Source: an uncultured bacterium (GTDB lineage: Bacteria > Bacillota_I > Bacilli_A > RFN20 > CAG-826). Taken from it: a stretch of 39,805 bases of DNA. Below, piece after piece: positions 35,885 to 39,805 of this stretch. Where the stretch lies: NCBI GenBank assembly GCA_949299335.1, contig CASGAD010000020.1, positions 1 to 39,805 on the forward strand, given 5' to 3'. Positions within the stretch are counted from its first letter, which is position 1; every line of letters begins with the position of its first letter. The notes under the pieces were generated by a model, which searched no databases, had not been told where the DNA came from, and saw nothing but the letters and a program-made list of their open reading frames with translations. Both the position numbers and the translations under genes were made by a program.

Positions 35885-36997
35885 TTATTGTTGATAAGCT
35901 GGACGTAAGTATTTCATCGATAAGAACATTACTCTAAATGAGTAAGTCAATAAGAATAGCATTGCTCCAAATGAAGGTACTATGAATCCTAAAATTAATG
36001 ATATGATAGCTGGAGAGATAGACATCCAGAATGCTATGCTATAGCATTGAAGGAACTTAGTTGATCTATTAGGATTATTTTTACCTCTAGTCATAAGGAA
36101 GACAATTAATCCCATAATAATCATAATGCCGCCATTTAATCCGGAATAAATTCCAAATGTTACCCATGTGTTTACATTATGTGGATCAACATACACTTTA
36201 TTAAGATAAGATGCAAAATTATTAATCACTGCTTCTTGCTTTACATCAATTGTTGCTGAAGAAGAAATATTGTATTTAAGAATATCAGTAAATGTATAAT
36301 TCGAACTTGTTCCAGCATCTGGGAAGCTTTCTAAAATATATTTATAATTGCCAGAAATTGATGAAGAAGAAGTTGAATCTACATATAATCTTGCGTAGAA
36401 ATAATATTTAGTAAATAAAATAAATGAGGATGTTCTTACATATTTTACATCTTTTAATGTTTCTCTAGTTGCATCATTGGCGTCTCCGTAATTTGGATTT
36501 GAAGCAACAATGTTATTAATTAATGTTGTGTCATCTTCACTATTTGAAACATAAATATCTAAAACATGAGAACCATCTCTAGTGTATGCATAAAATGGTT
36601 TAGTAACACTAAGGACTTGGTCTTCATAGACGTAGTCTTTATAAGTTTCTTCGTGATATGTGCCTGTTAAGGAAGCATTAGCTTTATCGAAAGTAATTGT
36701 TAAATCTTCGTTTTCGCTAGCATCGTTTAAGTAGGCGTTAATTCCATAATAGAATGGATCACTAGTAGTTTGAGTGACAAGTTGACTGCCTTGAACTTGA
36801 GCAGCACTTACTGTAGGTTGAACAACCGAAATTAAAATCGCAAAAATAAAGACAATTAAGCTCCAAAACCATTTTAAAGAAGTTGCGATTTCTAAACATA
36901 TTCCATTATTAATTAATGACTTAAGGCAATAAAAAACCTTTGCCCAAGGGAACGGCTTTTTATTTTTGACAACTTTTGCTTTAACTTTATTACTCAT
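35885..36997 (-). CDS. Membrane protein with a large extracytoplasmic domain, unknown function
   Basis: 370 aa. Basic N-terminus, TM about 40-62, then about 220 residues outside (63-285, rich in Ser, Thr, Asp and Tyr), and three TM segments at about 286-308, 322-345 and 346-364. The layout (one TM, external domain, three TM) recalls DUF1189-type proteins, but I see no diagnostic motif. RBS AAGAGGT. Transcribed alone from a promoter covered by a 20-bp palindrome. Confidence 0.8.
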   Translation of the reverse strand: MSNKVKAKVVKNKKPFPWAKVFYCLKSLINNGICLEIATSLKWFWSLIVFIFAILISVVQPTVSAAQVQGSQLVTQTTSDPFYYGINAYLNDASENEDLTITFDKANASLTGTYHEETYKDYVYEDQVLSVTKPFYAYTRDGSHVLDIYVSNSEDDTTLINNIVASNPNYGDANDATRETLKDVKYVRTSSFILFTKYYFYARLYVDSTSSSSISGNYKYILESFPDAGTSSNYTFTDILKYNISSSATIDVKQEAVINNFASYLNKVYVDPHNVNTWVTFGIYSGLNGGIMIIMGLIVFLMTRGKNNPNRSTKFLQCYSIAFWMSISPAIISLILGFIVPSFGAMLFLLTYSFRVMFLSMKYLRPAYQQ

Positions 36998-37663: not shown

Positions 37664-37705
37664 AAAAATCTGTCTAAGCTCTTAATAGAACTTAGACATT
37701 TTTAT
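37664..37705. terminator. Bidirectional terminator between ssrA and tetR
   Basis: TGTCTAAG (37671-37678) pairs with CTTAGACA (37691-37698). TTTTTAT follows on the plus strand, and GATTTTTT on the minus strand (complement of 37664-37670). It ends both ssrA and the convergent tetR. Confidence 0.85.
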
Positions 37706-38228
37706 TTACTAATATCGTAAGGCTGAGAATAATACTTTTTCATGAGAACCAGTAATTCGTCAGGAGTTGATTTCATGTCATCATCTAACCAAGCCAATAT
37801 CCATCCATATAAACCATAAATTAAAAAATTTAAGCCGTATTTTTCGGCTGTGTTTTTTGGAGTAATCTTTTTGTTAATGTGCTTTTCTATAGCCTTTTTG
37901 ATAATCTCAGTTAAATTTTGCTTATATAAAGTGATATAAAATTCTTTATTTTTAATATAATGTTTTGAAAGTTCATATAAAAAAGAAGTAGCACTTTTGT
38001 GTTGGATATTTTCATAATCATTATTAAATTCAGTTGCTAAGACATCTTCATGTTTGATCAAAATATCCTCGATAGAAGTAAAGTTTCTATAGAATGTTGC
38101 TCTTCCTACTTGGGCTAAATTCACCAATTCGCAGACGCTAATATCATTAATGCTTTTAGTTCTTAAAAGATTTAACGTGGCTGCAAGTAATTGTTTTTTG
38201 CATAAGCGTTTTCTTCTGAATTATTCAT
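37702..38228 (-). pseudogene. TetR-family regulator with a frameshift in an A-run
   Basis: From ATG 38228 the frame reads MNNSEENAYAKNN and stops at a TAA after about 18 codons. The next frame encodes QLLAATLNLLRTKSINDISV, then CELVNLAQVGRATFYRNF and the rest of a TetR protein to 37702. One extra A in the run of six (minus-strand 38199-38194) would restore a 175-aa protein, normal for a small TetR. So the gene is broken, read by slippage, or miscalled at a homopolymer. The HTH is VCELVNLAQVGRATFYRNF. The 141-aa open piece alone would lack the first DNA-binding helix. It faces a divergent promoter with operator-like repeats, so it presumably repressed the neighbour now displaced by the IS. Confidence 0.8.
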
Positions 38229-38271: not shown

Positions 38272-38321
38272 TGTTGATACAATTGGCACATCACATTTTT
38301 GACAATACAATTGTATCAACA
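38272..38321. promoter_or_regulatory. Paired TetR-type operator sites
   Basis: TGTTGATACAATTG (38272-38285) and CAATTGTATCAACA (38308-38321) are perfect inverse copies 22 nt apart. Each contains the CAATTG centre of a presumed operator GTTGATACAATTGTATCAAC; the second site is the more complete palindrome (ATACAATTGTAT). Centres are 28 bp apart. They lie in the divergent promoter region of the frameshifted tetR. Confidence 0.65.
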
Positions 38322-38328
38322 CTACGAT
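38299..38328 (+). promoter_or_regulatory. Rightward promoter of the displaced target gene
   Basis: Perfect TTGACA (38299-38304), 18-nt spacer holding the second operator site, TACGAT (38323-38328). An AGAGGAG Shine-Dalgarno follows at 38357-38363. No gene follows: an IS starts at about 38385, where the coding sequence should be. Confidence 0.55.
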
Positions 38329-38390
38329 ACCAAAAATTAGAACTAGTGTAAATATGAGAGGAGTTTTCAGATTACGTTTCATAATTGTAG

Positions 38391-38449
38391 GTAACAAATT
38401 TAAAAGGAGCCTTTATAATTTAAGTTTGTTAAGTAAAGAAAGGGCTCCT
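38391..38449 (+). promoter_or_regulatory. IS internal promoter and RBS-sequestering hairpin
   Basis: Internal promoter GTAACA (38391-38396), 17 nt, TATAAT (38414-38419), with -35 starting in the left repeat; +1 near 38426. AGGAGCC (38405-38411) pairs with GGCTCCT (38443-38449), extendable to about 10 bp, burying the AAAGG RBS (38439-38443). Only RNA started upstream of 38405 carries both arms. Confidence 0.55.
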
Positions 38450-38451
38450 AT

Positions 38452-39771
38452 ATGGATATTATACTTGATTTTAATGAATTATCACAAACAACAAATGCAA
38501 CAGAAAAAATTTTAAAGCAGTTCCCGAAAATTAGCATTGATAACGTAATAAAAATCGTTTATGGAAAATTTAAAGAAATGCTTTCAAACTATTTAGAGCA
38601 AATAGATAGGAAAATTTCACTTGAACTAAGTTCGAATAATAATGTCAAGCTAGTAAGTAAAAGAAAGAAAACTATTAAAACTCCTTTTGGACTATTCACT
38701 TTTTATAGACGTTATTATCTTTACAAACTCGAACACAGTGAAACGTATTTTTACGCGTTAGATGAACTACTAGGCATTAGGCCTAGGACTCAATACACAG
38801 ATGGTTGCAAGTTAGAATTAGCCTTTAAAGCGAGTGAACTAACTTATAGGCAAGCTGGCGAAACTATTTCAAATGAATTTGTTGCAAGCAAATCAACAGT
38901 TTATAGATCAATTAAAAATTTGAATGTTAAACAAGTTATACCAACTAAAATTACTAATAATCAAGATAAAATACACCTTCAAATAGATGAAAAATATGTA
39001 TCAATACGCAACGAAAAACATAAGAAAAGACTTTATACGGCCACAATTTTCAAAGGTAGATTTTTATACGGGAAAAATAAAAACAAAGCAAAACTGCTAA
39101 ATAAAACCGTTTTTTCTGCAAATTCTGTTCCGCTATTAGCACTCAAAGCCAATGAAATATTAAAAAAAGTTTATAATTGTAATCCAAATGAGGAAATTTA
39201 TATTTCTGGAGACATGGCAAGTTACATTCGAAATTTTAATGAAAGAATAACTACTGCTAATGCAATTTATGTAGCTGATAAATTTCATGTATTTAGAGAT
39301 TTCATGAAGTATACAGGAATTCATTTAGAGAATGATTCTTTTGATAGCAACGAAAAGATTTTAGAACACCTTAACGAACTGCAAGCAATCAAGGAAGAAA
39401 AGATTCTACTTAATCCGGAATTCAAAAAATTATTAAATTTATTAAAAAGTCAGCCGGATTCTCTAAGACACTATAACGATGAAAAATATCAAGGTTGCTC
39501 TCAGGAATGTATGAACTCTCGAATTTATGCGGTAAGATTTGGCAAACTAACAAACAAATTTAATTTCAATACAATACTTAAGTTATCAGAGATAAAAGAA
39601 GCTATAATTAATGACTCAAAATTAACACTAGAATTTAAACAAGGTGACTGCTATAAGCATTCAATTATTAATTCTATTGAAAGAATGGAACTTGAAAAAT
39701 ACGTTATTGATACATCTGGAATGAGTTACTCAATGAGAAAACTATTTACAAACATCAAATATGGTCATTAA
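38452..39771 (+). CDS. ISLre2-family transposase (UPF0236-like)
   Basis: 439 aa. The N-terminal region has IKTPFGLFTFYRRYYLYK and YALDELLGI, the signature start of ISLre2/UPF0236 proteins, then a helix-turn-helix-like segment (LTYRQAGETISNEFVASKSTVYRSIK, about 138-165). A DDE-type core follows, with candidate acids in LQIDEKYVSI, YISGDMASYIRNF and YVADKFHVFRDF. It ends at 39771, 34 nt before the right end. Length is slightly below the usual 450-490 but no break is visible. ATG 38452 has AAAGG 8 nt upstream. Confidence 0.88.
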   Translation: MDIILDFNELSQTTNATEKILKQFPKISIDNVIKIVYGKFKEMLSNYLEQIDRKISLELSSNNNVKLVSKRKKTIKTPFGLFTFYRRYYLYKLEHSETYFYALDELLGIRPRTQYTDGCKLELAFKASELTYRQAGETISNEFVASKSTVYRSIKNLNVKQVIPTKITNNQDKIHLQIDEKYVSIRNEKHKKRLYTATIFKGRFLYGKNKNKAKLLNKTVFSANSVPLLALKANEILKKVYNCNPNEEIYISGDMASYIRNFNERITTANAIYVADKFHVFRDFMKYTGIHLENDSFDSNEKILEHLNELQAIKEEKILLNPEFKKLLNLLKSQPDSLRHYNDEKYQGCSQECMNSRIYAVRFGKLTNKFNFNTILKLSEIKEAIINDSKLTLEFKQGDCYKHSIINSIERMELEKYVIDTSGMSYSMRKLFTNIKYGH

Positions 39772-39805
39772 ATATATGATAGAAATTTTTAGGCTCTACC
39801 TACAA

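Follow-up and report, generated by a model that had tools for sequence, protein, structure and literature searches.

What does the inverted repeat around the transposase ribosome-binding site of this insertion sequence (IS) do, and which strand does it serve? The window, the whole stretch of 39,805 nucleotides analysed here, comes from an uncultured bacterium and ends within an ISLre2-like element that lies behind a putative promoter reading into it. IS10 and IS50 are protected from outside transcripts, and most of what is known about antisense control of transposition comes from IS10 and a few other elements. The preliminary description of this locus held that the repeat would silence transposase made from outside transcripts, by folding over the ribosome-binding site. 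Here we argue, at a probability of roughly 80%, that the IS encodes a small antisense RNA in cis, for which the repeat provides both the stem and the intrinsic terminator.

The element is 1,451 bp long and is divided over two contigs of the same genome (Table 1). Its ends, GATTACGTTTC... at 38370 and ...GAAACACAATC on contig C24, carry imperfect terminal repeats of 24 bp, and since GAGTTTTCA stands beside both, C20 (the window) and C24 flank one IS copy with a 9-bp duplication; terminal inverted repeats with an 8-9 bp target duplication are marks of the ISLre2 family. The two contigs share exactly 141 bases (window 39665-39805), which looks like an assembler k-mer overlap. By its Pfam match (cut-off 24 bits) the transposase is of the UPF0236/ISLre2 type. 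Its best NCBIfam model is ISLre2 NF033529, where it misses the equivalog cut-off of 200 bits, and for that reason we file the element only as ISLre2-like; its relatives score 98-197 bits on the same model. Another mark of ISLre2, a site 15-17 bp upstream of a sigma-A promoter that adjoins the right end, has no obvious counterpart by eye in the right flank; the insertion lies downstream of a promoter, between the one divergent from a TetR gene and the gene for a 62-residue membrane protein. The strong outside promoter that the preliminary description saw reading into the IS is there in the form of a consensus match. The TetR gene (37702-38228, minus strand), putative repressor of that promoter, looks frameshifted, and may be broken, slipping or an assembly error: the frame opened by its ATG ends after 18 codons, and the remainder, HTH included, is encoded in a different frame beyond a run of six A. 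Elsewhere in the window (35885-36997, minus strand), a membrane protein of 370 residues without a Pfam match is predicted.

Table 1. Annotated and predicted features at the left end of the insertion sequence (window coordinates).
Feature	Position	Strand	Basis
Outside promoter TTGACA-18-TACGAT, would read into the IS	38299..38328	+	consensus scan
Target-site duplication GAGTTTTCA, left copy, 9 bp	38361..38369		identical 9 bases after right end on C24
ISLre2-like insertion sequence	38370..39805 plus 15 nt on contig C24, same genome	+	terminal repeats, 9-bp duplication, transposase PF06782
Left terminal inverted repeat GATTACGTTTCATAATTGTAGGTA	38370..38393	+	matches right end in reverse complement
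-35 of predicted internal transposase promoter, GTAACA	38391..38396	+	consensus scan, 17-nt spacer
Predicted antisense RNA, about 50 nt, one stem-loop	38398..38450	-	prediction only
A-tract, minus-strand U-tract of predicted antisense terminator; short here, last base stem-paired	38402..38405	+	A-rich 8 nt adjoins left arm in 47/50 copies
Left arm AGGAGCC	38405..38411	+	sequence, fold, co-variation
-10 of predicted internal promoter, TATAAT; predicted mRNA start ~38426	38414..38419	+	consensus scan; between arms in 44/46 copies
Shine-Dalgarno GAAAGGG	38438..38444	+	sequence
Right arm GGCTCCT, between Shine-Dalgarno and start codon; touches Shine-Dalgarno	38443..38449	+	sequence, fold
Transposase gene, 439 aa	38452..39771	+	PF06782 95 bits; NCBIfam ISLre2 113 bits, below cut-off
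Predicted antisense -10, TATAAT, within codons 3-4	38458..38463	-	consensus scan, copy comparison
Predicted antisense -35, TTGTGA, 18-nt spacer	38482..38487	-	consensus scan

Both arms, the Shine-Dalgarno sequence and the internal TATAAT are located as first described, ahead of the transposase ATG at 38452. Folded as a sense RNA of 91 nt, this leader forms a 10-bp stem at -19.5 kcal/mol (z -2.5), equalled by 3 of 200 shuffles, and among 200 dinucleotide shuffles of the leader, 2 do as well as its best stem ending at most 3 nt from the start. Taken alone, the stem of the window copy is only moderately beyond chance, and the decisive evidence is the co-variation in other copies. Searches with window sequences were unproductive in genome contigs (single protein query) and in plasmids (window DNA or protein), as was a search of viral contigs with alignment A2. 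For the comparison, transposase relatives were drawn from the same order and from a second one within the class; they gave 50 leaders, 40 of them non-redundant. The leaders usually run A-tract, left arm, TATAAT-like -10, Shine-Dalgarno, right arm, 0-3 nt and start codon, and their arms are 16-98 nt apart. That the arms should be conserved and compensatory in other ISLre2 copies, the test set by the preliminary description, is borne out: in the 50 ISLre2-type copies, pairing extends to 8.4 of 9 positions between the two arms of one copy, against 3.4 when arms are swapped between copies. The arm pairs differ widely and change together, from GGAGCC/GGCTCC in the window to GAACCC/GGGTTC, GGAGTTC/GAACTCC, GGTTAAAACC/GGTTTTAACC, GGAAGACC/GGTCTTCC, GAGAAAAC/GTTTTCTC and GTGATTAATCTC/GAGATTAATCAC in relatives. 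Over 35 distinct arm pairs, from copies at roughly 20-40% protein identity, 98.9% of cells are paired and covariation is 1.24 against 0.30 after shuffling (0/500), far above shuffled and slid controls, in a count that favours pairing through arms anchored at the stem base, an artificial linker and pre-selection of the arms for pairing. Given this pre-selection, the unbiased tests are the leader shuffles. Even within one genome, two copies (L004 and L006) differ by a compensatory arm change, L006 also having one mismatch. Aligning whole antisense RNAs with MAFFT and RNAalifold put the arms out of register and left the consensus structure weak or absent. A chance origin is rejected on the host-gene and shuffle controls.

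So what is on the other strand? The preliminary description considered the sense strand only, and missed both the A-tract and a minus-strand extended -10 in the first transposase codons. An A-rich stretch of 8 nt adjoins the left arm on its outer side in nearly all copies (Table 1). Codons 3-5 of the transposase follow the pattern ATN-NTA-NCA, which on the minus strand is the extended -10 TGNTANNAT, and its placement puts the predicted RNA start at the base of the stem. Read in that direction, TGNTANNAT in codons 5-3 is followed by 6-9 nt, the stem, the loop, the closing arm and a T run, and the loop holds ATTATA, which is complementary to the sense -10, together with a CUCCUU-like anti-Shine-Dalgarno sequence. 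The consensus over the 40 non-redundant copies is T36 G37 N T39 A40 T29 A23 A39 T39. Codon 4 is NTA in 39/40 non-redundant copies (49/50 of all), and codon 5 is NCA in 34/40 (43/50 of all) with a residue varying between P, S, A and T; it should be noted that the analyst assigned start codons on the basis of alignment and position, a procedure that could work slightly in favour of these codon criteria. Where codon 4 encodes isoleucine it is ATA in 28 of 29 cases, compared with 29% elsewhere in gene bodies, and up to about position 50-67 the protein alignments show no invariant residues other than M1/I3. This codon pattern points to a constraint on the DNA, not on the protein. Furthermore, four predictions fixed before 18 new copies were read gave the stem in 18/18, the A-tract in 17/18, codon 4 NTA in 17/18 and codon 5 NCA in 16/18; all four together occur in 38/50 IS copies versus 0/28 host genes.

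The signals vary between copies. Several lack the TG of the extended -10 and show a 4-of-6 match to a -35 instead, the window copy among them with TTGTGA-18-TATAAT. The U-tract of the window copy is short, the A-tract is missing from L148 and from the GC-rich L156, and L018/L019 have a GC stem of only 5 bp. G.U pairs lean to the minus strand (11 versus 3 A.C, P 0.03), in a weak strand test, since two of the 11 lie outside the true stem of L018 and full stems give 14 to 8; this bias weakly favours antisense pairing.

An antisense RNA whose stem is also its terminator explains the A-tract, the extended -10 in codons 3-5 and the minus-leaning G.U pairs together. The minus-strand promoter in these codons, an extended -10 in most copies and a -35 plus -10 in the window copy, would start an RNA at the stem base, beside the start codon. 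This RNA would run outward through the complement of the Shine-Dalgarno sequence and of the mRNA 5' end, until the complement of the left arm closes the stem and transcription stops at the U-tract. By pairing with the transposase mRNA it would then keep ribosomes from binding, in the manner of RNA-OUT in IS10. The predicted antisense RNAs are 50-120 nt long (median 67.5 nt) with an MFE of -15.6 kcal/mol. For an intrinsic terminator, the arm loops of 16-98 nt are long, though several are predicted to contain inner helices. That both promoters are transcribed, that the RNA terminates and represses, and that repression brings a benefit are all steps that we infer from sequence.

The sense strand may add a second layer. 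The internal -10 is found between the arms at a 5/6 match or better in nearly all copies, downstream of the left arm, so that mRNA from the internal start should lack this arm; only read-through mRNA would hold both arms and hide its own ribosome-binding site in a fold. By prediction, a median of 11.9 kcal/mol is needed to open the translation start region in read-through RNA versus 4.5 kcal/mol in internal RNA, and the former is higher in 45/46 copies. We would give even odds to read-through protection as an effect beside the antisense RNA; it is plausible for any copy behind an outside promoter, the window copy included. Hiding of the ribosome-binding site would in any case come free with an antisense stem at such a place, and the two functions could not be separated from sequence alone.

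Could this sense-strand effect be all there is, with no antisense RNA made? The co-varying arms, the position of the -10 and the opening costs agree with what the preliminary description had read from the sense strand, and to that extent its idea stands, but it leaves the minus-strand signals unexplained. Protection from read-through alone predicts neither the A-tract beside the left arm (47/50), nor the NTA-NCA codons (49/50 and 43/50), nor a stem that begins at transcription-start distance from a minus-strand -10, and we regard it as an unlikely sole function. The arms might instead act as DNA, as inverted binding sites for the transposase (inner terminal repeats or an operator), and in several copies the inner right end does resemble the left-arm and -10 region by eye, while imperfect pairs occur as well. 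Such sites would not be expected to vary in spacing from 16 to 98 nt while keeping a constant 0-3 nt to the start codon, nor to differ from copy to copy so that arms of different copies do not match each other; with the codon and U-tract signals also left unexplained, we hold this reading to be very improbable. That the stem and U-tract, which face the minus strand only, merely insulate by stopping minus-strand transcription from leaving the IS, with no regulatory RNA, is scarcely credible beside a dedicated minus-strand promoter at the stem base that is kept against codon preference, and beside the antisense RNA and sRNA of such form that Rfam holds for IS256-family elements.

The antisense RNA that we propose has a close parallel in RNA-OUT of IS10, a 69-nt antisense RNA that pairs through its first 35 nt with the start region of the transposase (PMC5006887). 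As in the pIN/pOUT system of IS10, a short outward RNA would arise just inside the transposase gene and be complementary to the translation start region (PMC5006887): in the ISLre2-type copies, the sequence holds a putative minus-strand promoter just inside the gene, and a stem-loop RNA complementary to that region and ending near the IS end is predicted, of a length similar to RNA-OUT. Unlike these copies, IS10 has an IS4-family transposase; the likeness is one without homology. In the ISLre2-type unit, moreover, the antisense -10 lies in codons 3-5, and the stem, directly next to the start codon, doubles as terminator. The antisense principle itself is known from IS10; what would be new is its family-wide scope in ISLre2-type elements. 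Among the papers searched, none was found that links ISLre2 or TnGBS to an element-encoded antisense RNA, and the main text of the ISLre2 family description does not mention a hairpin or ribosome binding (PMC3942029).

Annotated members of the ISLre2/TnGBS family (p-MULT 3) share transposase homology, terminal repeats and the 9-bp duplication with the window element, although its transposase scores under the NCBIfam ISLre2 cut-off, and they carry the same stem: on plasmids of Ligilactobacillus, Lacticaseibacillus, Enterococcus, Geobacillus and Thermaerobacter, annotated ISLre2 elements have stems of 11-18 bp at or near the start codon, most of them with the A-tract. The device was not found in 11 ISLre2-like copies from genomes of mollicute type. 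Among IS256-family elements, the stem also occurs in IS1310 and a Limosilactobacillus element, and was not found in IS1542, ISTth4, ISAba26 and ISRm3. Moreover, two orphan Rfam sRNAs lie antisense to IS256-family start codons (L174/L177, L175 and L178: IS905, a Streptococcus satellite-phage copy and ISEf1). Spy392987 (RF02592), a 63-nt antisense RNA of S. pyogenes, scores 75 and 97 bits at IS905 and at a Streptococcus mutator transposase (Javan121), and in both it begins at the start codon. It shares the anatomy of the ISLre2-type unit, with a stem GGAAUAAAUC/GAUUUAUUCC closed by a U-run and a loop over the Shine-Dalgarno; its host elements belong to IS256 (p-MULT 1), not to ISLre2. Ref64 (RF02847, Enterococcus sRNA 64) is 69 nt long and has the same position and shape at the start of ISEf1, likewise an IS256-family host, where the copy scores under the family cut-off (36.9 of 44.3 bits). 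One ISLre2 leader matches Spy392987 below cut-off (28.8 of 47 bits), and in the window 38300-38560 gave no Rfam match, RF02592 included, at E up to 5. We think it fairly probable that Mutator-type bacterial IS share a control device, an RNA-OUT-like unit of first-codon promoter, stem by the start codon and U-tract, across ISLre2 and the IS905/ISEf1/IS1310 group of IS256, and that Spy392987 and Ref64 belong to it.

If our reading is right, a large IS family of the Bacillota would carry an antisense RNA in nearly every intact copy, with the antisense promoter written into the first transposase codons. The conserved N-terminus M-x-I-[ILV]-x would be accounted for as a DNA constraint, Spy392987 and Ref64, so far unexplained, would gain a likely target, and annotation of such antisense RNAs would have a simple signature.

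Two further observations concern single copies and element ends. At about 480-531 of L162, from an Anoxybacillus plasmid, a similar hairpin GACAGGTTCC/GGAACCTGTC stands after AAAAAAA and before an ATG out of the transposase frame, perhaps as a second or decayed leader. In several copies (e.g. L102, L094 and L006), the inner right end repeats, by eye, part of the left-arm/-10 region; the annotation may understate the length of the inner terminal repeat, and a second inward -10 may lie at the right end.
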